NCBI GenBank assembly: GCA_024763435.1
Contig: JANTFN010000003.1
Coordinates: 1 to 32,151 of the forward strand
DNA from: Thermodesulfobacteriota bacterium
GTDB lineage: Bacteria > Desulfobacterota > S145-22
DNA length: 32,151 nucleotides
Direction: 5' to 3'
Positions 10,917 to 32,151 of this stretch are shown piece after piece. Positions within the stretch are counted from its first letter, which is position 1; every line of letters starts with the position of its first letter. The notes beneath the pieces were generated by a model. It was not told the DNA's origin. It did not search any database and was given only the letters and a program-made list of their open reading frames with translations. Position numbers and translations under genes: made by a program.

Positions 10917-11003
10917 ATTATTTCATATTAGTTTAAATTTATACACCTGAAAAAAACAAAACGCAACCTTAAAAATTTTTTGTGTCGCGGTTTTCAAGGG
11001 AAC

Positions 11004-11031: not shown

Positions 11032-11079
11032 AGACAGAAGACACCATGATAGCAGATGTCGATAATCAGTATTTATGTG

Positions 11080-11094
11080 TTATATGGAATATAA
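11080..11094. promoter_or_regulatory. Inverted repeat TTATAT-gga-ATATAA, possible operator
   Basis: Perfect 6-bp arms, ~33 bp upstream of a TTGACA box; vaguely ModE-box-like but very AT-rich. Confidence 0.3.
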
Positions 11095-11126
11095 GTTATT
11101 TTTTAGGATTATTTAAGATAATTTTC

Positions 11127-11155
11127 TTGACAAACAAGCGGGGGACTGTTATTAA
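11127..11155 (+). promoter_or_regulatory. Sigma-70-like promoter TTGACA-17-TATTAA
   Basis: TTGACA (11127-11132), 17 bp spacer, TATTAA (11150-11155); predicted TSS at or next to the ATG at 11162. Confidence 0.6.
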
Positions 11156-11161
11156 AGCTAC

Positions 11162-12073
11162 ATGAACAAGGAAATGATGACAACCCGGGATGTGGCGCTT
11201 TATCTTGGCCTGAATGAGAAAAAGATTTACCAGCTCGCGAAAAACAGGGAAATTCCCGCGGCGCGGGTCGGCGGAAAGTGGATTTTTCCCCGCAGCCTGA
11301 TTGACCAGTGGATACATGAAGGCGCGGAGAAGAACCTGAAGGCTGTTGAACCGGAACTTCATCCGCCTCTCTCTGTCATGGGGAGCAATGACATGGCCTG
11401 GGATATCCTCAGCCATATCCTGAAAAACTCGCCTTATAATCTTTTAATTTCCCGCGCGGATGTTGGGAGTGCAGGCGGACTGGTGGCCCTAAACCACAAA
11501 ATGGCTCAGGTTGCCGGGGTACACCTTTTCGACCCGGAAACAGGAACTTATAATATTCCGTTTCTAAAGGATTATCTCCCGGGGAAAAAAATATCTGTGG
11601 TAAACCTTTTTTACCGGGAGCAGGGGCTGATGGCCAGAAAGGGGAATCCGCTGTCTATACAAGGGGTTGAAGACCTTCAGCGGCCGGATGTCCAGTTTAT
11701 CAATCGTCAGAAAGGATCTGGAACGCGGTTGCTTCTGGATTCAACTTTAAAAAAATTAAAGATTGATCCCGCTCAAATCAGGGGATACCTTCGCGAGGTT
11801 GACACACACATGGCTGTCGCGCTGGAAATTATTCGCGGCAAGGCAGATGTTGGAATGGGAATATTTGCCGCGGCACGGGCCCTTGATCTCTATTTTATCT
11901 CCATAAAAAACGAGCGCTATGACCTTGTTATTCCCGGGGAATATATCCAGACCCCGATGGTTGAAATCCTTCTGCATGTGATTAAAACACCGGAATTCCG
12001 GGAAGCCCTTTTGGGATTGGGGGGATATGACCTCAAAGAAACAGGGAAAATAATCTGGGAGGGTATTGTATGA
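11162..12073 (+). CDS. HTH (excisionase/MerR-like) + PBP-like domain transcriptional regulator
   Basis: N-terminus MTTRDVALYLGLNEKKIYQLAKNREIPAARVGGKWIFPRSLIDQWI; C-terminus resembles the PBP_like domain (GSNDMAWDIL...GSAGGLVAL...NRQKGSGTRLLLD...ADVGMGIFAAARALDL). Confidence 0.87.
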   Translation: MNKEMMTTRDVALYLGLNEKKIYQLAKNREIPAARVGGKWIFPRSLIDQWIHEGAEKNLKAVEPELHPPLSVMGSNDMAWDILSHILKNSPYNLLISRADVGSAGGLVALNHKMAQVAGVHLFDPETGTYNIPFLKDYLPGKKISVVNLFYREQGLMARKGNPLSIQGVEDLQRPDVQFINRQKGSGTRLLLDSTLKKLKIDPAQIRGYLREVDTHMAVALEIIRGKADVGMGIFAAARALDLYFISIKNERYDLVIPGEYIQTPMVEILLHVIKTPEFREALLGLGGYDLKETGKIIWEGIV

Positions 12074-13461
12074 TTGGAAAGGGAAATAATGCCGGAAAAA
12101 CCGGGAGGCTTTATGTACTTATAACGGGCTTGATTATAGCTTTGATGTTGGCCTCTCCCCTTTCGGCAAAAACGCCCAAGCTGACTTTTGGCGCGGAAGT
12201 TCGATTCAGGGGTGAATCCCTGGACAACTTTAATCTGGCGTTCTATGGCCCCAATCCTTCCAAAGGCAAGTCCCATGATCAATTTCTTCTCGGAAGGTTC
12301 CGTGCCGGGTTTGATTATACGCCCAACCAGGTCATTCATCTCGCCTTATGGGGACAGGATGCCCGGGAATGGGGGTATGGGTTTAAAGATAAGGATTTTT
12401 ACAATCCTGTCTTCGGAACGCAACATAACCCCTTTAAAGATGAATTTGAACTCTGGAATACCTATCTGGAGGTAAAAAAACCTTTTGACTGGCCTCTTGC
12501 GGTGAAGGCCGGGAGACAACGGATTTTTTACGGGGACAAACGCGTTTTTGGCCCAGGGCAGTGGGGGAATTCAGGAAAATGGATATGGGACGCGGTTAAG
12601 ATGTCGTTTTTTATTCCGAAGGGGTTTGTGGATGTCTATTATGGGCGTACCATGATCCACCAGCCGACAGAGTTTAGCTTGAATCATCGCCATGGCTTCG
12701 AATCCATCGGGACCTATGCCCACATCACCCTCCCCAAAAGCATGGGGGAGATTGGCGTGGAACCCTTTGCCATGACGAAATACGACAGCCATGACCATTA
12801 CAAGGGAGAAGATGGACGTTACGGAGACCTGAACGCCGCCTACGCGGGGATGCGGGTATTCAAAAAGAATCTCCGAGGATTTGATCTTGATGCCACTTAT
12901 GTGCGGGAGTTTGGAAAGTTAGCCAATGATACAATCCAGGCGTATGGGTATCATCTACTCGCGGCCTACACCGTTACATCCTGTCCCTGGCGCCCGCGGG
13001 TCAGCCTCGAGTATTCGGTTGGATCAGGAGATAAAAATCCGAAGGATGGCACCCGTGGATCCTTCGACGGGGCCTTTGGAGCGCGGGATAAGATGTATGG
13101 ACGGATGAATCTCTTTAAATGGCGGAATATCAGAGACGCTCAGATTAATTTGGAGCTATGGCCGCAAAAGTGGAAATGGTTCTATATCAAAGCGGAGTTC
13201 CATAAGTTCTGGCTGGATGAGGAAAAGGATGGTTGGTCTTTAAACCCGAAACTTTACAGAGACAAAACGGGAAACTCCGGGAATGAAGTGGGCCGGGAGG
13301 TTGACATCGTCTTCAGGTTTAATCTCCCCAAGGGGCACCAGATTCAGGCGGGATATGGCCATTTCTGGCCCGATGAATTTGTCAAAAAACTGGCCTCCAA
13401 CAAACAGGCAGATTGGTTTTTTATTCAGTGGCAATATAAATTTAACTGGAAAATACTATAG
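12070..13461 (+). CDS. Outer-membrane porin, alginate-export-like
   Basis: 463 aa, signal peptide, beta-barrel pattern; KAGRQRIFYGDKRVFGPGQWGNSGKWIWDAVK is typical of Alginate_exp proteins; start overlaps the regulator stop. Confidence 0.75.
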   Translation: MIGKGNNAGKTGRLYVLITGLIIALMLASPLSAKTPKLTFGAEVRFRGESLDNFNLAFYGPNPSKGKSHDQFLLGRFRAGFDYTPNQVIHLALWGQDAREWGYGFKDKDFYNPVFGTQHNPFKDEFELWNTYLEVKKPFDWPLAVKAGRQRIFYGDKRVFGPGQWGNSGKWIWDAVKMSFFIPKGFVDVYYGRTMIHQPTEFSLNHRHGFESIGTYAHITLPKSMGEIGVEPFAMTKYDSHDHYKGEDGRYGDLNAAYAGMRVFKKNLRGFDLDATYVREFGKLANDTIQAYGYHLLAAYTVTSCPWRPRVSLEYSVGSGDKNPKDGTRGSFDGAFGARDKMYGRMNLFKWRNIRDAQINLELWPQKWKWFYIKAEFHKFWLDEEKDGWSLNPKLYRDKTGNSGNEVGREVDIVFRFNLPKGHQIQAGYGHFWPDEFVKKLASNKQADWFFIQWQYKFNWKIL

Positions 13462-13543
13462 GGCTGAGGACTGAGAAAAACACGCATCCGAATCACCTGT
13501 TAACACTTATGAATGCATTATAATGAGAGGGAGATATTGTAAA

Positions 13544-15346
13544 ATGGAAAGATTACGCGTGAAACACAGTTGGTTGATTTTGTTTATTATTGGAGGTGTT
13601 CTTTTTTTAAATTCCATGGCGTTTGCGCAGGGTAAACCCACTGCTGTTTATGGCGAAGGACAGGCGAGTTTTGTGGTGGCCACGGGCAGCCCGGGGGCGC
13701 TGGGATTGCTCAAGGCCCTGGCAGAACCGTTCTGCAAGGCGAATAACTGTCGCTTGATATGGTTCAAGAAGGGGAGCGGCGCTTCCCTTGCCTTTATGAA
13801 GAAGGGAAAATGCGACGTGATTATGGTCCATGCCCCCGCGGCGGAGAAAAAGGCGGTGGCCGAAGGCTGGGCGGTCCATCGCACGCTCCTTGGCGCGAAT
13901 GAGTTTTTTATTGTGGGCCCGAAATCGGATCCCGCCGGGATCCGAAAGGCCAGATCGGCCAAGGAAGCCTACGCGATGATCGCGAAGGCAAAAGCGACCT
14001 TCTTCTCCAGGGGTGACAATTCCGGGACCAACAAACGGGAACTGAAGATATGGAAATGGGCGGGAATCAAGCCCTCGGGTCGCTGGTATGTCATTACGCA
14101 TGGATTTATGGGGCCGACCCTGATGCGCGCGGATAAAGAAATGGGATATTTTATGACGGATAACAGCACTTACTATGTTAAAAAAGCGAAATTGGAACGC
14201 ATGGTGCCGCTGTTCAAGGGAGACCCCATCCTGACGAACGTTTATCACGCCCTGATACCGAATTCCGAGAAATACCCCAAACGAAATACCAAACTGGCCC
14301 TCAAATTTATTACGTTTGTTGCCTCCCCGACCGGCCAGAAAATCATTCACACCTTTGGGGAGAAAAGATATGGCCGTCCGCTTTACCGGGACGCGTCGGT
14401 CGCGAAAGAATTGGAAAAAAACCTGGGAGGCATGCCCGGGGCCGCGAAAATCAAGGGAAAGGTAATTATCTTTCACGCGGGTAGTTTGACTCTCCCCTTA
14501 CTCATGATGGAAAAGGCCTTTGAGAAAAGCCATCCCGGGGTGGATATTGTCCGGGAAGCGGCGGGCAGTCGGACCTGTGCCCGAAAAATTGTGGATTTGA
14601 AGCGTCCCTGTGACCTGATGTTCTCGGCCGATGATTCCGTTATCGACAAATTTCTCGTTCCCGCCCATGCCAATTTCAACATCCGTTTCGCGAGCAACCA
14701 GATTGTCCTGTGTTATACAAACCAAAGCCGTTTTCATGACAAACTGACGGCTAAGAACTGGTACAAGATACTTCTCGACAAAAAGGTCATCTGGGGGCAG
14801 GCGGACCCGAATGCCGATCCCTGTGGATACCGCGCCCTGATGGTTATGCAGCTCGCCGAAAAATATTATAAAATAAAGGGATTATACAAGGCGCTTCTGG
14901 CGAATCGCCCCCTCAGAAACGTCCGGCCGAAATCTGTGGAATTGATTGTCTTGCTCCAGACGGGCGACATGGATTACGCGTGGGAGTACCGCTCCGTGGC
15001 CGTCCAGCATAAACTGAAATTCCTCTCGCTCCCTGAAAAAATCAATCTGGGAAGCACCGATGATAACGATTTTTACAAACAGGCGGCGGTTGAAATATCG
15101 GGGAAAAAACCGGGGGCCAAAATAAAAAAAATCGGCAAGGCCATTACCTACGGCGCTACGCTCCTGAAAAAAACGAAAAATAAGGCCGCCGCACTGGCCT
15201 TTCTAAATTTTGTTCTTAACCCGGACAAGGGATTGAAAATTCTGAAAAAGATGGGACAGCCCCCTGTCGTTCCGGCATGGGTCACATCCAAAGCGATGAA
15301 ACAGAAGATTCCAGCACAGTTACGGCAGTGGGTTGTGGTTAAATAA
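13544..15346 (+). CDS. Fused dual substrate-binding protein: TupA-like tungstate-binding domain + WtpA/ModA-like tungstate/molybdate-binding domain
   Basis: N-half: [27 protein letters not shown]...[48 protein letters not shown] (TupA-like). C-half: [63 protein letters not shown]...[25 protein letters not shown] (WtpA-like). One continuous ORF. Confidence 0.85.
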
Positions 15347-18078: not shown

Positions 18079-20766
18079 TTACCATGTTTGACTGATCCAG
18101 TGCGGGCAATCTCCCTTGTCGATGCTAAGATTAATTTTTTGACTTTTCACGGGGGCATCTGTTAGATAAATTGTTTTGGTATCTTTTGACACGCCATTTT
18201 GCGTGTAGGTAAATAGCGAAATATTTAGTTTTGGGGACAACTTCCCGTAACACAGGCAGCCGGGGCCAAAAGGAGTTCCATCAATACCCTGCTTGCATTC
18301 CTTGAATACCCAAAACAGCGCTTCCACGCCGGAAATACCGACCGTGGGGAGGGTCATGACATAACTTATCTTGCCTTTGGGAAATGATGTCGTTTTGTAC
18401 TGGATGGGGGAAGAATTTCCCCTGCCGGTGAAGGAAAAGGTGTCTTTGACTGTTTTGGGTTCAATCCAGAATTTCCAATGACTGTGCCAGGTTTGTGGGG
18501 CGCTCGCACCGAGACGATAGGGGGTTGCAACAGTAAAAGTCAAATATTGTGCCCCGAATTGAGTATGCCCATAATCACCGAGGACAAAGGCGGAATTTGA
18601 GTTGACTTCCATAAAGACTTTTATCCATTTTACGCTTCCGGTTGACGAGGCGCTGAACTGCCATTTGACGTCCTTGATTTTGAATGTTGCATTTTTTGGT
18701 TTCTGGTCATTGGTGATTGAAAAAGCACTGCTTTCGATCTGGGCGCTGCGGTCCGATTTTTCGATGAGCGCGGTATATTTTCCCTGGGGTGTGTCTGCTA
18801 AGACCGCAATCGAGGCCACGCCGCTATAGGGGTTGATAATCAGCTCTTCGGCAATCTTCTTGTGGCTGGCATTCCAAAGCGAAATATAAAGGTTTGTGTT
18901 TTGCAAAGCCTGTTTGTCCAAAACAGTCCACCTAACGTTGTGCCAGCTGCCGGCTTTCCATACCGTTGTTTTGATGGGTTCGGTTATTTTAAGGGTATTA
19001 AAGTAAGCCGGGGCTCTATGGGAATAGGAGATTGAAGGACCGCTGGTTTTTAAAGTAAAAGGCGCACTGTCGCCGGAGACAGTCTTGTTGGATGCTTCAA
19101 CACGCGCGATGAATTGTCCGCTATAAAACTTGGCGGGGATTTTCCAGAGAAGTTCTCCTGTGTTGATAATTGTATTATCGCCCCCTGAGCCGCTACTGAT
19201 TATTGAAAAGGGGGAAGTTTTACCATCCGGATAAATCGTAATTTTTACCTTCGTGGTTTTGCCAAGCCCTATACTGTACCAGCGAATGGGTAATGTCTGG
19301 CCGGACTTCCAGATTGAACCGGATTTTGGGGACCAGACGTTTATGAACGCCGATTCTATGATTTTCGGGGGTAATGGCTTTGCAATGTAAAAAGTATCAC
19401 TTTCACCGTAAATCTTGCTGTTGTTTGAGGCTGAAACGCGGATAAAATAGGTTCCCGCGGGTATTGTCGAAGGTACCGTCCAGGGGAAGGTGAAGCTCAA
19501 AGCGTTAATAGAGCTTTTTATTGTTTTGGTTGTTTTCTTGGTTGTAGCATTTTTAAGCTTGATATTTACCTTATTAATGCTGGCTCCCAAAACAATCCAT
19601 TTTATTTTATGGGTTGTTTTGTAACGCCATACATTATTTTTCATGGGGGATGATATGCCTATACCGTTAGAAGTCCCCATGAAAATTTCGGGTAAAGGAA
19701 GAAAAGCCAGTGGTTTTCTCGCTGCGTAGGGCAATGGTCTTTTCGGTAAAGGCCCAATTCCTGGCTTTGCGATTGAGACGTTTCCCGCGGCAGCCGGTGC
19801 GCGATGCGTTGCCGGCACGTTGCCTGGAATGGTGAAATGTTTGCTATCACTGAAAACCAGGTTATCCAGGGTCTGCACCCGCACTATGTACTTGCCTGTG
19901 CGTTTGATCCTGGAAAGCGACAGACTGAAATGTCCATTGTTGGAAGCGTTTTTCGTCAGCCAGGCCCCATGGCCGTCAGCGGCCAGACGAGATTGTCCAG
20001 CCGGATAAAGCAGAATTTTGATACGGGTATTCATTCTGCCCTTTTTAGACCAGCGGATGTCCAGAAACTTCCCTCTCCAGCCTTTGACCCCGGGATGCTC
20101 CGAGCCCTTCATGGCCAGGGTTTCGATTTCCGCTTTGACATTATAGATCTTCCCCAGCACGTTCCTGACAGGTTTCGCCCTCTCGATATGGGGAGTCCGG
20201 GCGGGCCCTGTTATCCTGACCCCCTGGATCGGTGCGGCAACAATAATCTGAACCGAGGTGCTGTTGTTCTGTGGTCTTATGTCTTCCTGCCCTTTCTTCG
20301 GGATGACCGCAACCTTGACGGTGAAACTCCCCGGCTTTTTAACCTTGAAGGTGGTCTTAACGTCATGTGACTTTCCGGCATCAAGTTTGAGTTTATGGTT
20401 CTTGTCTTTGGTGATCTTCTTTCCGTTCAGGTAGAAGCGCACCACGGCATCCTTGAAGGTCAGGAGACCTGTGTTTTGAATGGTTGCCGTAAAGGTAAGG
20501 GGTTTTCCTATCTTTGGCTTACTGGGAGAGAAGGTGAGTTTCTGGACACTGAGATCACCTTTCAAAGTCAAGGGCCTGGCTTGATGGATTTTCTGGCGGG
20601 CAGGTTGCGCCCGGTGGGATTGCTGCCCGGCAGGGTGACTGTTCCCGGTCCTTTCAGGGGGCGGCAACTGAAGCTGCTGGATGGCAACTGCGGTTGAGCC
20701 ATAGAAGCAGAAGGCTATAAGGGTGAAAGCAAAAATTGCCTGTACGATATATGTCTTCCTTTTCAT
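18079..20766 (-). CDS. Large secreted protein with CARDB-like and repeated Kre9/KNH-like domains
   Basis: 895 aa, signal peptide; CARDB-like LSVQKLTFSPSKPKIGKPLTFTATIQNTG; repeated W..G....I.W...G....V.I.L....W.VP......Y.IRV.......SD.F.I units. Confidence 0.75.
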   Translation of the reverse strand: MKRKTYIVQAIFAFTLIAFCFYGSTAVAIQQLQLPPPERTGNSHPAGQQSHRAQPARQKIHQARPLTLKGDLSVQKLTFSPSKPKIGKPLTFTATIQNTGLLTFKDAVVRFYLNGKKITKDKNHKLKLDAGKSHDVKTTFKVKKPGSFTVKVAVIPKKGQEDIRPQNNSTSVQIIVAAPIQGVRITGPARTPHIERAKPVRNVLGKIYNVKAEIETLAMKGSEHPGVKGWRGKFLDIRWSKKGRMNTRIKILLYPAGQSRLAADGHGAWLTKNASNNGHFSLSLSRIKRTGKYIVRVQTLDNLVFSDSKHFTIPGNVPATHRAPAAAGNVSIAKPGIGPLPKRPLPYAARKPLAFLPLPEIFMGTSNGIGISSPMKNNVWRYKTTHKIKWIVLGASINKVNIKLKNATTKKTTKTIKSSINALSFTFPWTVPSTIPAGTYFIRVSASNNSKIYGESDTFYIAKPLPPKIIESAFINVWSPKSGSIWKSGQTLPIRWYSIGLGKTTKVKITIYPDGKTSPFSIISSGSGGDNTIINTGELLWKIPAKFYSGQFIARVEASNKTVSGDSAPFTLKTSGPSISYSHRAPAYFNTLKITEPIKTTVWKAGSWHNVRWTVLDKQALQNTNLYISLWNASHKKIAEELIINPYSGVASIAVLADTPQGKYTALIEKSDRSAQIESSAFSITNDQKPKNATFKIKDVKWQFSASSTGSVKWIKVFMEVNSNSAFVLGDYGHTQFGAQYLTFTVATPYRLGASAPQTWHSHWKFWIEPKTVKDTFSFTGRGNSSPIQYKTTSFPKGKISYVMTLPTVGISGVEALFWVFKECKQGIDGTPFGPGCLCYGKLSPKLNISLFTYTQNGVSKDTKTIYLTDAPVKSQKINLSIDKGDCPHWISQTW

Positions 20767-20857: not shown

Positions 20858-23371
20858 TCACCAACAACTTCTGGCTTCTGAACAGGTGAGGGGGTAGAAG
20901 TATACCGTATCATCAAAATCTCTGTAGGTATGAAGCCTCTTATAGATATAACCTTTTACACAGTTGTTGGCTTCATTGGTTTCCATAATAAGATTATCAG
21001 GGTCAATTCTGGCATGGTACTCCCGGACTCCCGGCATGATCCAGTACTCCTGGCGTTGATCGCATTTATATCCGTCTCCCCCAGTATAGGGATCCAGCTC
21101 AGGGATGTCGTAGCACTTCCCCCCGCACTTCTCTATCCAGATGCAAAGTTTTGACGGGGGCGACCGGACAGTCCCCATGTTCCTTACGTAGACAGGGATT
21201 CTGACATGTCTGTTCAGCTTTGCCCAAATTTCACTACATATACAAACGACAAGGTCAGGCAGATTGTTTGCTCTGTGGGCGGAGAAAGTTTTACGGTCTT
21301 CGTTGTTAGATTCATTGGATTCATCGACATCATTGTTGGTATCAATCTCAAGGGTGTGGTGATATTCTCCAGCAGCAGGATAATTGTATGATTTTTCCAG
21401 AAGATAGTGTACCCCGTAGTTAAGGGAAGGAATGTTTATGTCATCAAATTCCTTTTGAAATCTCGGTCCGCTTATGGCCAGCTTTGCCTTCGAAGGGCCC
21501 GCGCTTCCCAGGGAATTGTTTTCAATCAAGGCCTTTACCGTGATTAATCCCTGTGTTTCATCCTCTTCTATTTCCATGTTCCTGATGATCAAGTCTGGTT
21601 TGTAGGTGACAATTTCAAACCGGTCACTGACTGTCAGGTAATTCCAGTCTCCCTTTCTTATTTCGATTCTATAATTGCCTGACGGAATTTCAGGGACCTG
21701 CCAGGTAAAGCTGGTGCCGTGAAGTTCTTCACTTATTAATTCATACCGGACACCCATGAGCAGGACAAAAAAACCTTCCTCAGAATTGTGGAAGTTGTCC
21801 GTCCACTTGAGAGTGTACGTGTTGCCCTGGACGAGAATCGATCCCTTGCGGGGAAAGATTACCATGTTCGGCGGCGGGATATATTCTTCTGTGGCTATCT
21901 GCTGACATGTCATTGTATCGGACCAGGTATTATCTTCGTCGGATTCATCAATCCTGTGGTTCGCATCTGCCTCAATCCTGATTTCCTTGCCGCATGGAGC
22001 GGAAGCAAAAGTGTAAGAAAGAAGTTCTGTTGATACACTTGACGGTAAAGGAGGATTGACGTGCTGGGAATGCACAAGGCTGTTTCCGAACCAGATATGA
22101 ACGTTGAAAGCATCTAATACGGTGAGTGTGCCAATATTTTTTACCTTGTAAGATAATGTTACGGCATCGCCGGGTGAAAAATACCGGGGTAAAAAACTGA
22201 CCTCTGTTACGATAAGGTTTGGACCATCACCAGGCGAAAACAGTTTGCCGGGCAAATGCTTCCCTTCTGCCTGGAGGATTGAAGGCTTTGAAGCCTGCAT
22301 TGTCGGATGCGTTTTCGGGGATATGATTGTCGGCTTAAAGGCTTTCGCTTTAACTTTCTTAAAGGCGACCTGGATTTTTTCACTTTTTTTCAGCACAAGT
22401 TCAGTATCAAAATCCAGCATGCCGCCCGGTTTAGCCAAAAGCTTCTTGGGATCAATGCCTTTCAATCGCCAGCTCTTTGCCCTGCCACCATGGTGGAGGA
22501 CCAGCTTTCCATGCCGGTAATCCCCGGCAGTCAGTTTCCCTTTCCCCCTGTTCCGGACACGGATATGAAGCGTGCCGCCCTTGAGATAAATCCTCACGAT
22601 GGAAAGCAGGGGAGGTGCCTGGGCCAGAAGCGTTGTTTTCTTGGATGCCGCCGGGGCCGGAGAGTACTTCCTGACACTCAGGGTCTTTTCCGCCTCGGCC
22701 TTCTTTTTGAAAAACCGCCCACGTCTCGCCAGGCATTTCCTGTAGGTGGTTTCAACGATCCGGCCATTTAACAGGCACCATCCCATGGGTTCACATACCC
22801 TGGAAGCTGCTTGTTTGTCTTTGAAAAATATGCCCTTCTTTTTGAAACAGTCTCCCTTCTTCATAAGAGAAACCTTGTGGTTGATGCAGCAATATCCTGG
22901 CTGATTCATCTCGCAGTAAAGAAGCGCAGCGCCTTTTTTTTCAAAGAACCGCCCTTTTGCCTCCTGACACTTTCCCCTGACGGTTTTGACGACCTTCCCG
23001 TTGATGCAGCAATATCCCGGCTGATTGATCTCGCAATAGTGGGTCGCCGCTGCCTTATTTTCAAAGAACAGGCCATTTATTCCCTGACAGTCTTCCTTTT
23101 TTAATGAAGCGACCTTGCCATCTGTACAGCACCATCCTTTCGTCTGGGCATTGAGATACGCCTTCGCGGAATTCCTGTCTTTGAAGAAATGCCCCTTGCA
23201 CCTGGACCGGGTGCTTTTGAAGATCTTACCATCCGCGCAGCACCAGCCGGTGACGTGGCTACCCTTTTTAGTCTTTGCGGCTTGTTTGGCATAGGAAGAG
23301 AGAACACTTCCCGCAGTTATCAGCAATGCCGCCAACAGGAAGGTTATCAGGTGTTTTGTCTGTTTTTTTAT
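20858..23371 (-). CDS. Secreted cysteine-module repeat protein A (5 modules) with CARDB/Kre9-like C-terminus; probable ATA start at 23371
   Basis: ORF track starts at TTG 23335, inside the signal peptide. Homology to the D paralog extends upstream to ATA (23371-23369) preceded by GGAGG with a 7-nt spacer: (I/M)KKQTKHLITFLLAALLITAGSVLSSYAKQ. Confidence 0.75.
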   Translation of the reverse strand: MKKQTKHLITFLLAALLITAGSVLSSYAKQAAKTKKGSHVTGWCCADGKIFKSTRSRCKGHFFKDRNSAKAYLNAQTKGWCCTDGKVASLKKEDCQGINGLFFENKAAATHYCEINQPGYCCINGKVVKTVRGKCQEAKGRFFEKKGAALLYCEMNQPGYCCINHKVSLMKKGDCFKKKGIFFKDKQAASRVCEPMGWCLLNGRIVETTYRKCLARRGRFFKKKAEAEKTLSVRKYSPAPAASKKTTLLAQAPPLLSIVRIYLKGGTLHIRVRNRGKGKLTAGDYRHGKLVLHHGGRAKSWRLKGIDPKKLLAKPGGMLDFDTELVLKKSEKIQVAFKKVKAKAFKPTIISPKTHPTMQASKPSILQAEGKHLPGKLFSPGDGPNLIVTEVSFLPRYFSPGDAVTLSYKVKNIGTLTVLDAFNVHIWFGNSLVHSQHVNPPLPSSVSTELLSYTFASAPCGKEIRIEADANHRIDESDEDNTWSDTMTCQQIATEEYIPPPNMVIFPRKGSILVQGNTYTLKWTDNFHNSEEGFFVLLMGVRYELISEELHGTSFTWQVPEIPSGNYRIEIRKGDWNYLTVSDRFEIVTYKPDLIIRNMEIEEDETQGLITVKALIENNSLGSAGPSKAKLAISGPRFQKEFDDINIPSLNYGVHYLLEKSYNYPAAGEYHHTLEIDTNNDVDESNESNNEDRKTFSAHRANNLPDLVVCICSEIWAKLNRHVRIPVYVRNMGTVRSPPSKLCIWIEKCGGKCYDIPELDPYTGGDGYKCDQRQEYWIMPGVREYHARIDPDNLIMETNEANNCVKGYIYKRLHTYRDFDDTVYFYPLTCSEARSCW
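22679..23248 (-). repeat. Cysteine-module tandem array of protein A: 4 modules + cap
   Basis: GWCCADGKIFKSTRSRCKGHFF.. / GWCCTDGKVASLKKEDCQGINGLFF..YC / GYCCINGKVVKTVRGKCQEAKGRFF..YC / GYCCINHKVSLMKKGDCFKKKGIFF..VC / GWCLLNGRIVETTYRKCLARRGRFFKKKAEAEKTL. Confidence 0.9.
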
Positions 23372-23403
23372 AACCTATCCTCCTTCCATTTAGTTTATCA
23401 AAG

Positions 23404-25566
23404 CTACAACGTGAGACAGGAATACTCCCTCTCCCTATCAATAGCTCTCCAGGTGATGTGACAATCATTATTCGAGGTGCTTGTTTCGGGTATCTTGTTG
23501 TGCTGATCAAGAATAACGTGAAAATCGAGATCGTCGCCCCTGTGTGAATCATTATAAATAAAGGTATATATTTTTTCCTGGTGCCCGCCGATCCCATCCT
23601 CAATCCAGCCGGCCATATCAAGGCCCCGGAGATCAATTCTGATTCGCCGCCAGGTTGTTCCAGCTTCTCGGTTTTCTACGGTGATCTGAATAACAAGCTG
23701 TCGTTGCCCGCTCACTGTTCGACGGGAAATTCTGACATGGGATGTGTGAATGTCGATCTCGGGATGTTCACTCTCATCGCCGGGAGTGAACGTGATACCG
23801 GCTGCGTCATTATTGCCTGAACTGTTGGTAACGGTTATTTCGGCAGGTCGATTTTCTCCGGCATAAAGTCTGTCGGTAGGATCTCCGTAAGGATCATCCA
23901 TGGTGTCCGAAAGCTGCATCCTAATCCGGGTGTTATTCCAACTGATAATATTGACCCTGTAAGCGTATCTGTCACCCGGGACAGAAAATGTTAATTGACC
24001 CGGGGAGTCTCCAAAGTTCCTCCCGCGTATCGTAAGCTCCTGGAGAGGTGAAATTTCTCTCTTGGAAAGGCGATCGATACGTGGAACCATCGGCTGAATG
24101 GTGCAGACATATCTGGGACCTTCTTCGCCACTGTAATAGTAAGGTGTCTCGCTGGGTCCACCCGGTCCCGAAGCGATAAAGGTTCCGGGTGCCGGCGGTT
24201 CGACCCGGGCAGGTTTGAGCCAGATCACAGTCTCTTTTGCCGACCGGCCGATGGCTTCTCCCATGGATATCGGAACGATGCAGCGGACACGCCCTTGCGT
24301 CCATTCGGTAATCTCGCAGGAAAAAGTCGCATCCGGCAGGGCAATGACCACATGGCCTTCGTTTCTCCCAAAATCGTGGCCGTAAATGGACAGATTCCCC
24401 CCGACAGCGACCGGATGGTTGACCGATGTAATCCTGGCCGGAAACCCGGGCTCGGGGAGTGATGGTGCCTGCGCAGTCATCCCCGCATTAGATCCGGCAA
24501 CTCTTCGTTCTGTGGTCATGCGCGAATTCTGTAATGCCTTGTTGGATTGTTGAGAGGGAGCTATTTTCCTTTTAAAATAGTCGGTTTTTACTGTTGGCAT
24601 AATCTGCAAAGCACTTGACCTGCTGGCAACAGGGATGAGCAAAGCAGTTTTCTTCGCTTCACCGGGAAGGTTTGAAAATGACGTCTTGATCCTTGCGCGC
24701 CGGGTCAACTTGAGTCCGGTATCGAAATCCACGCTTTTGCCGGGGGTGAGCGCCCCCCTGGGATCGACCTTGCCCAAAGTCCAGGTCTTGTTCTTCGCGC
24801 CAAATGACAGAATAAGGCGGCCCTTGTCGTAATGCTTGCGCGTAAACTTCCCTTTGCCCTTGTTTTTGACCCGGACATAGATGGTGCCGTTTCTGAGAAA
24901 AATCTTCTCCACGGAAAGCAGGGGAGAGAGAGTGGACTTCCCTGATGTCCCCGGACCGGAAGAGGGTTTCTGCTTCTGTGTTGCCTGGCGCAGGGCCTTT
25001 TGAGCTTCCGCTTTCTTGGTGAAAAAACGCCCCCTTCTCGTCAGGCAGATCTTGCGGGTGGTTTCAAAAATCCGGCCATTAAACAAACACCAGCCCTTGC
25101 AGGCCGCGGCGGCTTTTTCCCTGCCTGTGAAGAACTTCCCTCCCTTGTCCTGACAGCCCCCTTTGGTCATCCTTGAGACTTTTCCATCCAGGCAGCAGTA
25201 CCCGGGGGTCTGGGCGTCGCAGTAGTCATTGGCGTCATTCTGGGTTGTGAAGAACTTCCCTCCTCTTATTTTGCAATTGCCTTTGGTTATGTTGGTAACC
25301 TTTCTATCCGCGCAGCACCAGCCTTTTGTCTGGGCATCGAGATACGCCTTCGCGGAGTTCCTGTCTTTGAAGAAATGCCCCTTATGTTCTCGACAGTAGG
25401 AACTGGTACTTTTGATGATCTTGCCTTTCGCGTAGCACCAGCCGACTATTTGACCGCCCTTTTTCCCTTTCGATGCCTGTTTGGCGTAGGAAGAGATGGC
25501 AAATGCGGAGACGACCAGTAATGCTGTGAAAAGAAAGAATATTGCATGTTTTGTTCTAGGGTTCAT
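23404..25566 (-). CDS. Secreted cysteine-module repeat protein B (4 modules) with IPT/TIG-like and CARDB-like C-terminus
   Basis: 720 aa, signal peptide MNPRTKHAIFFLFTALLVVSAFAISSYA; TIG-like VPRIDRLSKREISPLQELTIRGRNFGDSPGQLTF; RBS GGAGGGG. Confidence 0.8.
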   Translation of the reverse strand: MNPRTKHAIFFLFTALLVVSAFAISSYAKQASKGKKGGQIVGWCYAKGKIIKSTSSYCREHKGHFFKDRNSAKAYLDAQTKGWCCADRKVTNITKGNCKIRGGKFFTTQNDANDYCDAQTPGYCCLDGKVSRMTKGGCQDKGGKFFTGREKAAAACKGWCLFNGRIFETTRKICLTRRGRFFTKKAEAQKALRQATQKQKPSSGPGTSGKSTLSPLLSVEKIFLRNGTIYVRVKNKGKGKFTRKHYDKGRLILSFGAKNKTWTLGKVDPRGALTPGKSVDFDTGLKLTRRARIKTSFSNLPGEAKKTALLIPVASRSSALQIMPTVKTDYFKRKIAPSQQSNKALQNSRMTTERRVAGSNAGMTAQAPSLPEPGFPARITSVNHPVAVGGNLSIYGHDFGRNEGHVVIALPDATFSCEITEWTQGRVRCIVPISMGEAIGRSAKETVIWLKPARVEPPAPGTFIASGPGGPSETPYYYSGEEGPRYVCTIQPMVPRIDRLSKREISPLQELTIRGRNFGDSPGQLTFSVPGDRYAYRVNIISWNNTRIRMQLSDTMDDPYGDPTDRLYAGENRPAEITVTNSSGNNDAAGITFTPGDESEHPEIDIHTSHVRISRRTVSGQRQLVIQITVENREAGTTWRRIRIDLRGLDMAGWIEDGIGGHQEKIYTFIYNDSHRGDDLDFHVILDQHNKIPETSTSNNDCHITWRAIDREREYSCLTL
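24991..25443 (-). repeat. Cysteine-module tandem array of protein B: 3 modules + cap
   Basis: GWCYAKGKIIKSTSSYCREHKGHFF.. / GWCCADRKVTNITKGNCKIRGGKFF..YC / GYCCLDGKVSRMTKGGCQDKGGKFF..AC / GWCLFNGRIFETTRKICLTRRGRFFTKKAEAQKAL. Confidence 0.9.
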
Positions 25567-25605
25567 GGTAATTCCCCTCCTTTTTTTATGTTGCCGGTTT
25601 TTTAC

Positions 25606-25645
25606 TCTTTATAAGTAAGTGTCAAAATCACCGAAAAAGTTCATT
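25606..25645 (-). promoter_or_regulatory. 40-bp conserved upstream element (copy 1, gene B)
   Basis: tctttataagtaagtgTcaaaatcaccgaaaaAgttcatt; 38/40 identical to 31947-31986; starts 40 bp upstream of the gene B start. Confidence 0.7.
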
Positions 25646-25711
25646 CCTCTGTGAAATTAAATTTTTCATGTCTAAATGAAGATTTAACAATTTAAATTCC
25701 CATAAAAAGTT

Positions 25712-25725
25712 TCCCCTGTAGGGGA
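25712..25725. repeat. Short GC-rich palindrome TCCCCTGTAGGGGA flanked by T-runs, terminator-like
   Basis: 6-bp complementary arms; on the - strand followed by AACTTTTTAT, on the + strand by tctattttttt. Confidence 0.3.
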
Positions 25726-26111
25726 TCTATTTTTTTCTCCGGAAGAAGGAAAATATTTCCCCCTGTTTTTCTAATACAAGTAAAAATGTCAAAAGGCCCT
25801 TGTTTCTAAACCAGGGCACAACGGAGAAAAATCAAAAAAAGGGAGAATACACCAGGAGTTTTCCAGCGATAGCATAGTCTGCGGCCTGTAACGCGATATC
25901 TCACCGGAAACGCATACCTTAAAGATGATGTCTGTTGTTGGACCATTACGTGAATCTCTAAATTATAGGTTCTCATAAACAATAACATTGTTTTAATATC
26001 ATGTCAAAGTCCTGGCAGTGCTTAACGGCATACGTAAAGGGAAAACTAAAGCGTGTAAATAAAATTAAGTTCATATCGAGAAAGCCCCTTTTTGTTGTTG
26101 GCTAACGCTTG

Positions 26112-28877
26112 TTATTCGATGTAGAAAAAATCACTATAGGCTGTTACGCTGGGACAATTATCAAGCTCGAGGCGCAACCTGTATCTCCCGGTAGGAAGCG
26201 CGCCAGGCCCGCCCATGTTTCCCGCCCCACTGTCGCCTCCTGCCATCGTTACCCCATAAGACGCATCGTAACAGGAAGAGCCGATGACCCACCGAAAGCC
26301 TATTGTCGAAGACACCATAATTCTATAATTAAATGGTAGGTGTCGCGCTATGCAATCATAGTCTCTCCCGTCAGAACTGAGGTAAAGAGAGGCGGTTGCA
26401 GTGGGACAGGGATGGGGGCAGTATGGTGAATTGTCCCACACAATATCCACCCTGTCACCACTGGAGAAACGTCTCCTTGAGCCGGAGAAACCAAGTGTTA
26501 TTGCTGGTTGCTCGATGCGAAACTCCTCGCTTTCCCCGTAAATTCTGGGATCGGTTCTACTTTCAATGCGGATTTTGTACCCAGCTCCCAAGTATATGTC
26601 ACCTCTGCAATCACCACCGATTATCCAGGGGTGATTAGTCAGGTCAATATGTGATAGCGCTGCAATATTTTCAAGGATTGTTTTTATGCGTCTCCCACGA
26701 TTCATCAAGATTGCGTTGATCCTTTCAGGCCTAAAATTATAATGGCAGTGAATGGTTGGGGTGGAACCCAGAGACAGGGTTTCTCCATCTACCGAAACTT
26801 CCATAGGTGGGACAACGCTGAAAGAATGATCACTTTGATCATCAATCAGGGTCCCCCCGGTGATTATTTTGATAGTGTAGTCATCTCCCTCTTCGTAAGA
26901 GCCCGAGACATCATAGTTTACTGTACAGGTATAGGCATTGGCATTGGGACCCGGGGCATCTGAATCAAGTACACAATGGGCGTCTGTTTCATAGATTGTA
27001 TCCAAAATTCGCCCGTTTTTCATCAGTTGTATGAAGAAGTTCGGCAAAGCATCGCCGGGCATGGCAGAATAGTAACGCCATGAAATCGCCTGTCTGCTTC
27101 CTTTGGGCCACAATTCACCGCCGTTGGGGGAGAGCACACTAATACCATAAGCGCGCGTAGTTGATCCTGCGTCCCTGATCCCGCGAGTAAGATAAAAGGG
27201 CTTAGAAGAACCGTGAGATTCATTTTCTCCAACAAAGCGGACTCGGTTAAAAAAAGTCATGACATAAGGGCCCCCTTCCTGGAGATCATCGGGAAGGGTA
27301 CAATCAAGGATAAGGCTTCGCCGATCATCACTCAGAGACACAATAGTGCAAGGCAAGAAACGCCAAACTCCCATCATGGTTTCCGATTGCGATTGCAGGT
27401 GAATCCGTTTCTCCAGTTCATCTCCGGGGGGGCTTCGGAATGAAGGAAATTCCGGATCGGGAATAGAGAGGTAGATTGTCACATGCTCATTGGCAAGGTA
27501 AATTTGTTTCCTTGGTTCAATAGAAACTAACATTCCATGAGGGGCATAAGCATGCATCTCCGGGGGAATCACCCAGCCAATTTGAAAATCATCACTCACA
27601 CCATAGATGGCAGCAGTTGCTCGAACCATTACTGTATAGTGCCGGTTGGAAGGCACGTCTGCTGGAACCGGAAGTTCGACGCGCATTTCTCTTGACGGGA
27701 GCGGAATGACTGAGACGTCAGCGGTGGCAACGATTGTGTCTCCATTCCTAAGGGTCACTTCGGAAATCGGGAGCGGTTCTCTGCTTTCCTCAAAACTAAA
27801 ATGCACTTCGATGGTGTCGCCGGGCATAAAATGATTGGTGGATGAAGGCAGGGAAACATGAATTCCCCGATCAATAAAGAGGGGATTGTGTTTGCCCGGC
27901 TTACGGATGAGGGAAGGCAGTTTTCCCTGAAGCTTGGCGGGTGTCACGCCTGCCGCACGGGATAATGGAGCAACGCTGGTAACACGTCTGGTAAAAACCT
28001 TATGTTTTCCTTCTTTTTGAGTCAGTACTTTCGATGGTCCGAGTCGTACCGTCTTGAATCCTGCTATCCTGACCTTTTTAAAGGTTATCTGGAATTGGAT
28101 TATTTCTCTTTTTTTCAGCACAAGCCCCGTATCAAAGCTCATCTTTCCGCCCGGTTTAGTTAAAAGTCTTTTAAGATCAATCTGCTGTAAGCGCCACGTA
28201 TTTATCTTGCCGCTATAACGGAGGACAAGTTTGCCCTGTTTGTAATCCCGGGCGGTCAGCTTCCCTTTTCCTTTATTCTGGAGACGGATATGGACGGTGC
28301 CGCCCTTAAGATAGATCCGGGCTACGGAAAGCAGGGGGAAGATAGAAGGCTTGGCTGGTGCCTTGCTTGGAACCAAAAGGGACGAGGGAGCCTGCTTCCC
28401 GGACTTTGCCAGATGCAGGGCCTTTTCAGCTTCGGCTTTCTTCGTGAAAAACCGCCCCCGTCGCGTCACGCAGAGCTTTTTTGTACTCTCGAAAATCCGG
28501 TTGGTTGACAGGCACCAGCCTTTCAGTTCACAAGCTGAAGTGGCTTTGGTTTTGTCTGTAAAGAATTTTCCTTTCTTTTTCAGGCAGTTCCCCTTATTCG
28601 AGGAAACCACCTTGCCATTCAGGCAGCAGTATCCGGGGATCTGGCTATCGCAATAGCTCACAGCGGCCTTGTGGGATGTAAAGAAGTGTCCCTTATGCTT
28701 TAGACACATCGAAAGGGTACTTTTGAAGATCTTGCCGCCCGCGCAGCACCAGCCGATAGTATGGCTACCCTTTTTCCCTGAAGGCGTCTTCATGGCGTAG
28801 GAAGAGATGGCAAATACGAAGACGACCAGTAAGGCTGTGAAAAGAGAAAATATTGCATGTTTTGTTCTGGGGTTCAT
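26112..28877 (-). CDS. Secreted cysteine-module repeat protein C (3 modules) with Kre9/KNH-like repeats
   Basis: 921 aa, signal peptide MNPRTKHAIFSLFTALLVVFVFAISSYA; RBS GGAGGG; C-terminal units like ISVLSPNGGELWPKGSRQAISWRYY. Confidence 0.8.
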   Translation of the reverse strand: MNPRTKHAIFSLFTALLVVFVFAISSYAMKTPSGKKGSHTIGWCCAGGKIFKSTLSMCLKHKGHFFTSHKAAVSYCDSQIPGYCCLNGKVVSSNKGNCLKKKGKFFTDKTKATSACELKGWCLSTNRIFESTKKLCVTRRGRFFTKKAEAEKALHLAKSGKQAPSSLLVPSKAPAKPSIFPLLSVARIYLKGGTVHIRLQNKGKGKLTARDYKQGKLVLRYSGKINTWRLQQIDLKRLLTKPGGKMSFDTGLVLKKREIIQFQITFKKVRIAGFKTVRLGPSKVLTQKEGKHKVFTRRVTSVAPLSRAAGVTPAKLQGKLPSLIRKPGKHNPLFIDRGIHVSLPSSTNHFMPGDTIEVHFSFEESREPLPISEVTLRNGDTIVATADVSVIPLPSREMRVELPVPADVPSNRHYTVMVRATAAIYGVSDDFQIGWVIPPEMHAYAPHGMLVSIEPRKQIYLANEHVTIYLSIPDPEFPSFRSPPGDELEKRIHLQSQSETMMGVWRFLPCTIVSLSDDRRSLILDCTLPDDLQEGGPYVMTFFNRVRFVGENESHGSSKPFYLTRGIRDAGSTTRAYGISVLSPNGGELWPKGSRQAISWRYYSAMPGDALPNFFIQLMKNGRILDTIYETDAHCVLDSDAPGPNANAYTCTVNYDVSGSYEEGDDYTIKIITGGTLIDDQSDHSFSVVPPMEVSVDGETLSLGSTPTIHCHYNFRPERINAILMNRGRRIKTILENIAALSHIDLTNHPWIIGGDCRGDIYLGAGYKIRIESRTDPRIYGESEEFRIEQPAITLGFSGSRRRFSSGDRVDIVWDNSPYCPHPCPTATASLYLSSDGRDYDCIARHLPFNYRIMVSSTIGFRWVIGSSCYDASYGVTMAGGDSGAGNMGGPGALPTGRYRLRLELDNCPSVTAYSDFFYIE
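28416..28754 (-). repeat. Cysteine-module tandem array of protein C: 2 modules + cap
   Basis: GWCCAGGKIFKSTLSMCLKHKGHFF..YC / GYCCLNGKVVSSNKGNCLKKKGKFF..AC / GWCLSTNRIFESTKKLCVTRRGRFFTKKAEAEKAL. Confidence 0.9.
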
Positions 28878-29062
28878 GGCAATTTCCCTCCTGTTGCAAG
28901 CTTGAATGTTAACATTTTTGAACTCAACCTGTTTGGCTCGGGGCTTCTTTTCATGACAGTGATGGTTTTGTCGATGTCGGTCTGTTTGGTTTTCGCTATG
29001 CCCAAAAGCCCCATAAACAGGAAACGCAATACAGTTATTGCCGGAATGACAATTTTTCTCAC
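28874..29062 (-). CDS. Possible 62-aa leader/small membrane protein, ATGA-overlapping gene C
   Basis: GTG start with AAAGGTGA upstream; hydrophobic N-terminus MRKIVIPAITVLRFLFMGLLG; TGA overlaps the gene C ATG. Confidence 0.3.
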   Translation of the reverse strand: MRKIVIPAITVLRFLFMGLLGIAKTKQTDIDKTITVMKRSPEPNRLSSKMLTFKLATGGKLP

Positions 29063-29153
29063 AGGGTCACCTTTAGGGGTTGTTGTTTTTCGACACCTGC
29101 GAACAAGATAAGAGAAGTTTCTCCTCCCTTATTTTTCTGATTGGATTTCCATC

Positions 29154-31910
29154 TTACCTCCTGCAACCACGGTCAGGTAAGTGAAACATTGAAGAAAGAC
29201 CGTACACATAGTTTCTAAAACCATTAGGATACACCACGATGTTTGCAGGGATTCCTCGGTCATTTGTAAAACAACTGCAATAAGGATAGCCACCGCTACT
29301 ACTCTCGCCGAATCTCCAGCACAGACTTCCAGAAGGTGGCTGGTCATAGGATATCCAGATTTCACCACAATACCGCATAATTTCATGGAAGAAAGACTGA
29401 GCCGCGCCACAACTCGAGTTGCCGCTAACATACAGACAAACAACAGATACCCGAACCGAAGCATCCAGGGGGCTTTCCCAGTGGATCTGTCTGCCGTGTC
29501 TGCATCCGGATGTATTGGTCCAGACCCGGAAACCGGCATACCTTACTTCGAAATAACTGCCCAAGCCGTAGTTAGAAGGATCAGACGTATCGGAGACGCG
29601 AATCGCATAATGCGAACCACCATGCAGGGGCACTTCTTCTCCATGAAAAATCCACTGGCCTTCAGATACGCGATTTCCGCCTATATTCCACGTAAACCTT
29701 TGCTCGTTCCCACTAAATACCCCCTGGTTTCGGCTTAAGACCATAACCTCTGTTCCGCTTTCGTCCACAACTGAAATGCGAACGGAGCGTACCCCGGTGT
29801 GTGAGTGTTCTAATGGCCATTGGAATCGAATGACAGTAGGGTTGGCTATATAGCGCACGCCGCCACCATGCATTACCTTGATCGGGCCGGTGACGGAAAA
29901 CGTTTCGCTTATTCCTTCGGTAGGGCCGTTTCTATCTACAACTTTGATCCGGTAATCGGATGCCGGAGACAGATCGGCGGGGATAGGCCAGCTGAGAGAG
30001 TAGGACTCGGATGCCCCATGCCATATGGCACGTTCTGCGGGGATTGTAAGCACGGTATCAGCGCCACGCTTCAGCTGAACCAGAAAAGCGCGTTCTGCGG
30101 GGTAATGGCCATTGATACGCCAGGCAATAATCTGGGTGCTGCCGCGCGGCCAGCTGATCGGCGTGTGTCCTGGTGTTACGAGCCGAATCTCCCAGGCCGT
30201 ATGGGTTCCCCCGCCTCCCTCAGAAGCTCCCCCTTCCCCTATTGGCCGGATGGGAAATGTGACAAATCCGCTTGCTTTGGGATGCGTGGCAAGGATGGTA
30301 TAATTACCATAAGAGATGCCGGATGGGATTTCGAAGTGCAGCGTGTGGATTGCCTGATGCATCGTGCCCGCCCCTTCCGGGAGATATTCTTGCGTCTGTT
30401 CCGCTTCAACGCTGCCGTTGTGGTAGAGCTGAAAGGTAATTGTGCCGGGTTCGACCCGTCGGTTGAACTGATACCTGACGGTCATGGTTCCGCCCGTATG
30501 CTGGACATCATCCCTGGAAGGCTCTAAAAAGTCTATTCGCGCCAAGTTTCTCGTGATCTGAAATTCATCGCTTTCACCGTAGGCGTCGGATGCGGAATGG
30601 CTGGCTGAAATATAATAGCGCCCGATGGGGGTATCCTCCCGGAGCGTTAAAAGAGCCGGAACGCCTGGATGGGCGGGAACAGTTATGGTGCCGGCGTTGG
30701 TGCCGGTCCTGCTGAGGACGGAGAAGGTAATGTCGCCGTCCGACACATCCTCCCGGGTAATCTCATAAATGATATGGATGGTTTCACCCTGGTAATATTT
30801 TGCCGGGCCGACAGGATTGAGAATATGGATTCCCCTGTCAAGTATCATGGGGACCATTGATGGGGGTGACGGTTTCGCCCTTTTGGCCATCATCAAAGGT
30901 GAAACGGGTGTTTTTTTTGTATGTCCTGTGGAAAATGTTGAAGCCGTTTTCTGCTTCAATCTTTCAGATGGGGTAAGCAGAGATGTTTTGGATTTACCAC
31001 TTGGGAGTTGAGCAGTTGAAACCTGGACTTTGGCGCGCCGGGTCAGTTTGAACCCCGTATCGAACTCGACATATTTGCCTTTATTGAGCGCGCCTTTGGG
31101 GTCGATCCTGCTCAAGGACCAGGTCTTGTTCTTCGCTCCCAGCGACAACATTAAGCGCCCCTTGTCATAATGCCCCCGCGTAAACTTTCCCTTGCCTTTG
31201 TTTCTCACACGGAGATGGACGATGCCGTCCTTGAGATATATCTTTTCCACGGAAAGCAGGGGAAATAGCGCGGGCTTCTCTGGTGTTCCCGGGCCGGGCG
31301 ATAGTTTCTGCTTCTGCTTTGCCAGACGCAGGGCTTTTTGAGCTTCCGTTTTCTTGGCGAAAAAACGCCCCCGCCTTGTCAGGCAGGTCCTGCGGGTGAT
31401 TTCGAAAATCCGGTTGTTTAACAGGCACCAGCCTTTTAGTTCACAGGCTGAGGTGGCTTTGGTTTTGTCTGTAAAGAATTTTCCTTTCTTTTTCAGGCAT
31501 TCACCTTTCTTCATTTTGGAAACCTTGTGGTCAATGCAGCAGTAACCCGGTTGACTCATCTCGCAATACAGGTCCGCCGCGTTTTTTTTCTTAAAGAAAT
31601 GCCCTTTGTTTTTCAGGCAGTTCCCCTTATTCGAGGAAACCACCTTGCCATTCAGGCAGCAGTATCCGGGGGTCTGGGCGTCGCAGTAACTCTCGGCAGC
31701 CTCGCGGGTTGCAAAGAAGTGCCCCTTCTGTTTTGAACACATTGCGGCGGTGGTCTTAACGGTTTTACCGCTCTTGCAGCACCACCCGATGGTCTGGCCT
31801 CCTTTTCCCCCTTTTGAGGCCTGCCTGGCATGTGAAGATATAACGGCTCCCACAGTTCCCAGAAGCGCCACAAGCAGGAAGATTATCAAGTGCTTTGCCT
31901 GATTTTTCAT
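29154..31910 (-). CDS. Secreted cysteine-module repeat protein D (4 modules) with Kre9/KNH-like repeats and Cys-rich C-terminus
   Basis: 918 aa, signal peptide MKNQAKHLIIFLLVALLGTVGAVISSHA; module array plus ILNPVGPAKYYQGETIHIIYEI...GRYYISASHSASDAYGESDEFQIT. Confidence 0.8.
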   Translation of the reverse strand: MKNQAKHLIIFLLVALLGTVGAVISSHARQASKGGKGGQTIGWCCKSGKTVKTTAAMCSKQKGHFFATREAAESYCDAQTPGYCCLNGKVVSSNKGNCLKNKGHFFKKKNAADLYCEMSQPGYCCIDHKVSKMKKGECLKKKGKFFTDKTKATSACELKGWCLLNNRIFEITRRTCLTRRGRFFAKKTEAQKALRLAKQKQKLSPGPGTPEKPALFPLLSVEKIYLKDGIVHLRVRNKGKGKFTRGHYDKGRLMLSLGAKNKTWSLSRIDPKGALNKGKYVEFDTGFKLTRRAKVQVSTAQLPSGKSKTSLLTPSERLKQKTASTFSTGHTKKTPVSPLMMAKRAKPSPPSMVPMILDRGIHILNPVGPAKYYQGETIHIIYEITREDVSDGDITFSVLSRTGTNAGTITVPAHPGVPALLTLREDTPIGRYYISASHSASDAYGESDEFQITRNLARIDFLEPSRDDVQHTGGTMTVRYQFNRRVEPGTITFQLYHNGSVEAEQTQEYLPEGAGTMHQAIHTLHFEIPSGISYGNYTILATHPKASGFVTFPIRPIGEGGASEGGGGTHTAWEIRLVTPGHTPISWPRGSTQIIAWRINGHYPAERAFLVQLKRGADTVLTIPAERAIWHGASESYSLSWPIPADLSPASDYRIKVVDRNGPTEGISETFSVTGPIKVMHGGGVRYIANPTVIRFQWPLEHSHTGVRSVRISVVDESGTEVMVLSRNQGVFSGNEQRFTWNIGGNRVSEGQWIFHGEEVPLHGGSHYAIRVSDTSDPSNYGLGSYFEVRYAGFRVWTNTSGCRHGRQIHWESPLDASVRVSVVCLYVSGNSSCGAAQSFFHEIMRYCGEIWISYDQPPSGSLCWRFGESSSGGYPYCSCFTNDRGIPANIVVYPNGFRNYVYGLSSMFHLPDRGCRR
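31329..31787 (-). repeat. Cysteine-module tandem array of protein D: 3 modules + cap
   Basis: GWCCKSGKTVKTTAAMCSKQKGHFF..YC / GYCCLNGKVVSSNKGNCLKNKGHFF..YC / GYCCIDHKVSKMKKGECLKKKGKFF..AC / GWCLLNNRIFEITRRTCLTRRGRFFAKKTEAQKAL. Confidence 0.9.
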
Positions 31911-31946
31911 GATTTACCCCCCATTTTAATGTTGCAGGATTGTGTT

Positions 31947-31986
31947 TCTTTATAAGTAAGTGCCAAAATCACCGAAAAGGTTCATT
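31947..31986 (-). promoter_or_regulatory. 40-bp conserved upstream element (copy 2, gene D)
   Basis: tctttataagtaagtgCcaaaatcaccgaaaaGgttcatt; starts 37 bp upstream of the gene D start, mirroring gene B. Confidence 0.7.
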
Positions 31987-32151
31987 GATTATGAAATATT
32001 TTTTTACATATTTCAATTTTGTTATATGAAAAATCTTTAAAACCAACCCTTGTGTCACCTCCAGTATCGGAAAAAATTTATTTTTTTCAGTGCATCTGAA
32101 TTTTTAAAAAATCTAAGGGACCGGAGCGTTAAAAGGCTGAAATACATTGTT

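Follow-up and report, generated by a model that had tools for sequence, protein, structure and literature searches.

Four consecutive genes on the minus strand (A to D) encode secreted proteins that begin with a run of small cysteine modules, and the family formed by these modules is a real database orphan, with no entry in the libraries searched (Pfam, NCBIfam, PHROG, PADLOC and PDB). The family, with its two probable disulfides, appears to be what is new here, while the type of protein that carries the modules, a secreted Ig protein, looks familiar. Our tentative explanation, held with not quite even confidence, is that each of the proteins A-D joins an array that binds multivalently to the cell surface or matrix to an Ig-type adhesin stalk, and that recombination inside the cluster diversifies them.

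Layout of the gene cluster

The window, i.e. the whole stretch of 32,151 nucleotides that was analysed, is contig C3 of a draft genome (1.94 Mb, 79% complete). Genes A-D lie within positions 20858-31910 as four consecutive minus-strand ORFs of 720-921 aa (A 825 aa, and longer with the corrected start discussed below; B 720, C 921 and D 918 aa). In each of them an N-terminal signal peptide is followed by the module run, and the common architecture continues with a CARDB-like Ig domain and then one of several Ig-type C-termini. ORFs, signal peptides and module counts (5, 4, 3 and 4 in A, B, C and D) bear out the four secreted paralogues with 16 modules that had been proposed from the sequence alone; the module length, put at about 38-40 aa in that proposal, covers a wider range when measured (36-42 aa). 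The features are:

20858..23371, minus strand: gene A; signal peptide, 5 modules (the last being the cap), CARDB-like Ig domain, 3 CARDB domains and a Cys-rich end; probable ATA start
22670..23248, minus strand: module array of gene A
22355..22615, minus strand: divergent CARDB-like Ig domain of gene A
23404..25566, minus strand: gene B; signal peptide, 4 modules, CARDB-like Ig domain, TIG domain
24970..25443, minus strand: module array of gene B
24661..24927, minus strand: divergent CARDB-like Ig domain of gene B
25583..25666, minus strand: element upstream of B, common to D (81% over 84 bp, including 40 bp at 95%)
26112..28877, minus strand: gene C; signal peptide, 3 modules, CARDB-like Ig domain, Kre9-like Ig domains
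28395..28754, minus strand: module array of gene C
28521..28634, minus strand: module 2 of gene C, by nucleotide identity a fusion of D modules 2 and 3 with the break near 28574
28074..28337, minus strand: divergent CARDB-like Ig domain of gene C
29154..31910, minus strand: gene D; signal peptide, 4 modules, CARDB-like Ig domain, Kre9-like Ig domains
31308..31787, minus strand: module array of gene D (AlphaFold model, modules with pLDDT above 90)
31002..31262, minus strand: divergent CARDB-like Ig domain of gene D
31924..32003, minus strand: element upstream of D, common to B
18079..20766, minus strand: gene E; array-less secreted protein with CARDB and Kre9-like domains, adjoining the A-D cluster

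Gene A had first been called from a TTG at 23335. The start is most likely an ATA at 23371, because this codon has a well-spaced Shine-Dalgarno sequence (GGAGG, 7 nt upstream) and is in register with the ATG of D, while the TTG truncates the signal peptide. The ATA (23369-23371, minus strand) is a rare start codon or else a mutated ATG. The signal peptide is the sole hydrophobic segment of A-D, in which neither a lipobox nor a further membrane segment was found, and the four are best explained as probable Sec-exported, non-lipidated proteins of the envelope or matrix.

The ~200-aa tail of gene E is similar to that of a 1788-aa protein with modules in genome G575 (E 6e-5) and, more loosely, to proteins encoded beside arrays in G002 and G003; it is possibly a second domain without assignment that is linked to the modules. 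Elsewhere in the window there are two successive DUF1214-containing frames (1-1949; one of 141 aa, which runs off the contig end, and one of 498 aa, which also contains DUF1254), a HicA-like toxin gene (2853-3107) for which no HicB-type partner was identified among the scanned neighbouring ORFs, and, at 11162-15346, a regulator with HTH and PBP-like parts, an alginate-export-like porin and a protein with two tandem periplasmic-binding-protein domains.

The cysteine module and its partner domains

The modules share the signature G-[WYF]-C-C-x2-G ... C-x4-G-x-F-F ... A-x3-C and align mostly without internal gaps; a 26-base degenerate module pattern has 4 matches in the window vs 0.00 in shuffles. 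Whole-protein searches gave no consistent match over the array in Pfam, NCBIfam, PHROGs or PADLOC, and a module profile matched none of the PDB sequences. When 27 modules were compared singly with Pfam, nine different families were hit by one module each and nothing was reproducible, and isolated repeat-summed matches (Profilin, Nmad4, GULLO2-like_3rd) were not common to relatives. The sequence-only reading had likewise been unable to assign the module to a known family, and a Pfam- or InterPro-type match that contradicts it is absent from Pfam, NCBIfam, PHROG, PADLOC and PDB.

Structure prediction of one array, which that reading had proposed, was carried out for D and gave confident, compact modules with no PDB match. 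In an AlphaFold model of D with four relatives, the modules reach pLDDT values above 90 and are followed by an Ig-like domain; the predicted module fold consists of a beta-hairpin, a helix, a short strand and a second helix, and a separate two-module model agrees with the module fold of the D model. Foldseek searches with the two-module model returned nothing at the threshold of E <= 0.001 (best E 3.0 in PDB and 0.4 among viral models). The predicted topology bears some likeness to the RNase HI N-terminal/L9 fold, but this was dropped, as Foldseek gave it no support.

C3 and C17 occur in all 40 modules of a first set, and C4 and C35 are kept or lost together: among 98 distinct modules, taken from 27 reading frames of the own and related genomes and therefore representing related sequences and non-independent events, 61 have both residues, 30 neither and seven only one (61/6/1/30; Fisher 4e-18). 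One of the seven mixed cases (G544) stems from a segment cut, and another (G404) is itself a module fusion. The joint loss of C4 and C35 where C3 and C17 are retained favours a C3-C17 and a C4-C35 disulfide over a four-ligand metal site. From the covariation and the model we infer that the full module is a small fold with these two disulfides, the second of which the last module usually lacks. This last module is the cap, which had been described as invariant; it is a degenerate module in which CC is changed to CL and the final Cys is lost, so that the C4-C35 pair is gone. Nor do module and cap always co-occur, a proposed check of this point having yielded array proteins without a cap in G003, in G575 (three proteins, G575_315, G575_179 and G575_266) and in G615 (G615_426). 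Neither DsbB nor VKOR was detected in G000, G002, G003, G453 and G575, and for this reason we keep the disulfides as predicted; VKOR was detected in G340 and G290 and matched more weakly in G405 and G590. The charge of the array is about +12 to +15 per 100 residues in the source genome and its family. The array exceeds the rest of the protein in positive charge in 19 of 20 proteins; the single module of G575_70 has a neutral charge.

The conserved domain behind the array, noted earlier without an assignment, is by profile and model comparison a divergent CARDB-type Ig domain. Indeed, hhalign relates it to CARDB domains of the same genome set (98.3% probability, E 2.6e-14, 79 columns), Foldseek to the Ig-fold archaellum stators FlaF/FlaG (E 2e-3), and BLAST to C247 and C134, array-less proteins with two copies each. 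The direct CARDB profile (PF07705) has no match to this domain in A-D and stays below the cut-off in G575_179 and G575_266.

Of the C-terminal assignments made before, CARDB for gene A is substantiated (PF07705, three domains, 111.8 bits, 2e-32; cut-off 22.7 bits), as is IPT/TIG for gene B (PF01833, 28.4 bits, 1.7e-6; cut-off 20.9 bits), while the Kre9 match of A and the CARDB match of B fall below the Pfam cut-offs; C and D are Kre9/KNH-like as described, with scores marginally over the cut-off (Kre9_KNH, PF10342, 28.6 and 25.6 bits; cut-off 24.6). Bona fide CARDB domains are found in A, E, C134, C247, G340 and G575_70. The relatives end in CARDB, Kre9-like or TIG domains or in unrelated C-termini. 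Of the latter, that of G544 is rich in Cys, that of G575_68 is an acidic linker and that of G615 is a region without assignment; as these are non-Ig, the Ig stalk does not apply to all array proteins. Array and C-terminus are also separable, because the gene adjoining that of the array protein in G290 encodes a D-type C-terminus but no array (25% over 451 aa), and the C-terminal half of A resembles the array-less C247 (24% over 636 aa). D, C150 and G003 have collinear D-type proteins that are 44-52% identical over the whole length. A small secreted CARDB-type protein is encoded beside the array gene in G290 (L053 3454-3990, 178 aa) and in G590 (L084 7360-7869, 169 aa).

Recombination and distribution

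There is good evidence in the alignments for recombination within the cluster. Module 2 of gene C is, as judged by nucleotide identity, the result of a one-module deletion through recombination between modules: its first half is 98% identical to D module 2 vs 65% to D module 3, and its second half 94% identical to D module 3 vs 54% to D module 2. A second apparent module fusion is seen in G404 when compared with G405, and G405 itself (L081, G405:C94, 1-2443, minus strand) has a 12-module array that consists of a 4-module block repeated three times, near-identical and each with its own cap. Moreover, the nearest pair among A-D changes from unit to unit (signal peptide B-C, 0.82; first module A-B, 0.86; last full module C-D, 0.79; cap B-D, 0.84; Ig domain A-C and B-D, 0.74), a heterogeneity that was reached by 0 of 10,000 codon-shuffling permutations. 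The Ig domains of A and C form one lineage (support 99/98).

Some evidence likewise suggests C-terminal exchange, and the earlier idea of swappable C-termini on a constant N-terminus is upheld by two observations. B and D have the upstream element and an N-terminal half in common, with homology stopping at residue 344 and different C-termini behind it. B and C260 both possess TIG-type C-termini while their Ig domains do not form one clade (p-AU 0.0007, for a group chosen after inspecting the sequences), and C260 groups with G002 (support 100/99). An N-terminal discordance of D, C150 and G003 was discarded as a further case; their single clade is not rejected (p-AU 0.11), and the case for discordance therefore rests on B/C260 and the A-D mosaic.

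Since paralogues exchange segments and lose or gain whole modules, the cluster diversifies by homologous recombination between its repeats. The simplest history would be a duplicated two-gene unit (D-C and B-A) with later C-terminal replacement and gene conversion. The diversifying system envisaged by the sequence-only reading is thereby supported as far as mosaic paralogues, module fusion and discordant trees are concerned, but C-terminal types are stable between genomes and not hypervariable. Phase-variable tracts were rejected: the only runs are of A/T with a length of 7, a G6 in front of D and, inside the genes, stretches no longer than 8.

The distribution search covered genomes of one phylum, plus phages, plasmids and viral contigs; no relative was found in the last three. 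Homologues outside the locus, the absence of which would have counted against the family, are present, and arrays were found in 14 genomes (G000, G002, G003, G290, G404, G405, G415, G340, G453, G544, G575, G590, G615 and G641). Within the source genome the family is tandem as proposed but not confined to the four genes, with at least two further array paralogues on contigs C150 and C260. By these matches the module is patchily spread over the phylum: arrays occur in half of the class's six genomes, in 5/398 genomes of a phylum-wide spread sample, in 4/49 of the order of G290, in five credible cases out of 198 genomes of the order of G340, and in 6/98 of the family of G575. Array length ranges from 1 to 12 modules across relatives, and carriers are often multi-copy (at least five genes in G575; also G453 and G615).

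A match in G224 was discarded as a HicA-type toxin gene. In G211 the match (L095, G211:C12, minus strand, around 1501-1608) proved to be a decayed copy of the module, with TGA in the very place of the second conserved Cys; selenocysteine read-through was rejected, as no hairpin follows the TGA (-2.2 vs -7.4 kcal/mol in shuffles) and the second module is broken. In the nearly closed genome G453, an in-frame stop splits an array into two frames (L086, G453:C1:250000-268000, 9751-12095) and a further relic lies near 3480653 on the same contig; array copies thus decay.

Possible function and comparison with known systems

Short repeated modules in variable copy number on divergent proteins are the usual multivalent envelope- or polymer-binding architecture. 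The charge of the array, together with the lack of any other anchor in A-D, suggests a cationic unit that would bind, or be retained by, an anionic polymer of the cell surface or matrix in a multivalent manner, with an avidity scaling with module number, although a high Lys content by itself is a weak argument for polyanion binding. The Ig stalk would present the variable end as an adhesin or matrix protein. By analogy, the Ig-type remainder fits such a role: CARDB proteins are candidate adhesins of sulfate-reducing partners of methanotrophic archaea, and one of them is highly expressed in consortia (PMC10553843).

The tandem genes might alternatively be a dedicated recognition or variation system, i.e. 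a reservoir for surface variants used in kin or partner recognition or in escape from phages or predators. Mosaic N-termini, module deletion and C-terminal replacement within the cluster speak for this, as do the multi-copy arrays of G575, G453 and G615 and the precedent of recombining CARDB/Ig domains in VARTIG (PMC8416519); yet neither an expression site nor a recombinase, a phase-variable tract or a silent cassette came to light, the types of C-terminus are stable between genomes (see the D type above), and ordinary gene conversion between repeats leaves an identical trace, so that we consider it unlikely. Less probable is an export or sorting signal for a secretion machine or outer-membrane assembly site, without an external target. 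Such a signal would account for an array that is always N-terminal, near the signal peptide, and constant on unrelated, even non-Ig, C-termini, but a module number of 1 to 12 would be odd for it, C247, C134 and G290_n are close relatives with the same C-termini and a signal peptide but no array, and no conserved neighbour stands out as a candidate receptor.

Similarly improbable are metal- or cofactor-binding Cys4 units, with the array as a non-adhesive metal store or sulfur/redox scaffold. In their favour, each full module has four conserved Cys and several of the bacteria are without recognisable DsbB or VKOR; the joint loss of C4 and C35 with C3 and C17 kept indicates two pairs, however, the proteins are exported by Sec, and no metal-binding family was matched. 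Defensin- or Kazal-like antimicrobial or inhibitor units would also be cationic, Cys-rich and tandem, but here the modules carry long Ig stalks, none of the inhibitor or antimicrobial families in Pfam, NCBIfam or PDB was matched, no immunity gene was recognised and PADLOC was blank, which makes this reading very improbable indeed.

A multivalent binding array on Ig-type stalks thus remains our preferred reading. A bolder version, that this is an active diversity-generating surface-protein system on a two-disulfide module, in which repeats change module number and re-pair arrays with Ig-type ends, is doubtful; if true, it would give the cell or lineage a changing set of surface recognition proteins. 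With its clear signature, the module family would provide an annotation for many secreted proteins of environmental bacteria now listed as 'hypothetical'. The tandem cluster is a readable record of repeat-driven gene conversion, and makes it testable whether repeats are retained for faster diversification of surface proteins.

SLH, LysM, choline-binding and GW repeats are envelope anchors built of tandem short modules, with variable number and divergent functional fusions. The array resembles them in being kept across paralogues, in its fusion to divergent parts and in its varying module number, and differs by having no Pfam match, a presumed two-disulfide fold and a Gram-negative-type cell. 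Kre9/KNH-like Ig (PF10342) and IPT/TIG (PF01833) proteins are resembled, weakly to moderately, by C and D and by B, respectively, in the C-terminal halves only. CARDB (PF07705) surface proteins are, like A-D, Sec-secreted with Ig-fold domains in series, but the accessible part of the account of the sulfate reducers' adhesins describes no N-terminal cysteine-module array (PMC10553843), and in the array family CARDB is just one of several C-terminal partners. In spirit, the nearest described system would be the CARDB-containing VARTIG loci of Thermococcales, for which surface variants arising by recombination have been proposed (PMC8416519). Both comprise secreted multi-Ig/CARDB proteins with constant and variable parts and evidence of recombination; VARTIG is archaeal, no such cysteine module is described for it, and it varies in the C-terminal Ig domain between strains or species (PMC8416519). 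As to this trait, a variable C-terminal CARDB-type Ig domain, exchange is supported for B/C260 and C-terminal types are otherwise stable; unlike VARTIG, A-D vary between neighbouring paralogues of one genome and in module number.
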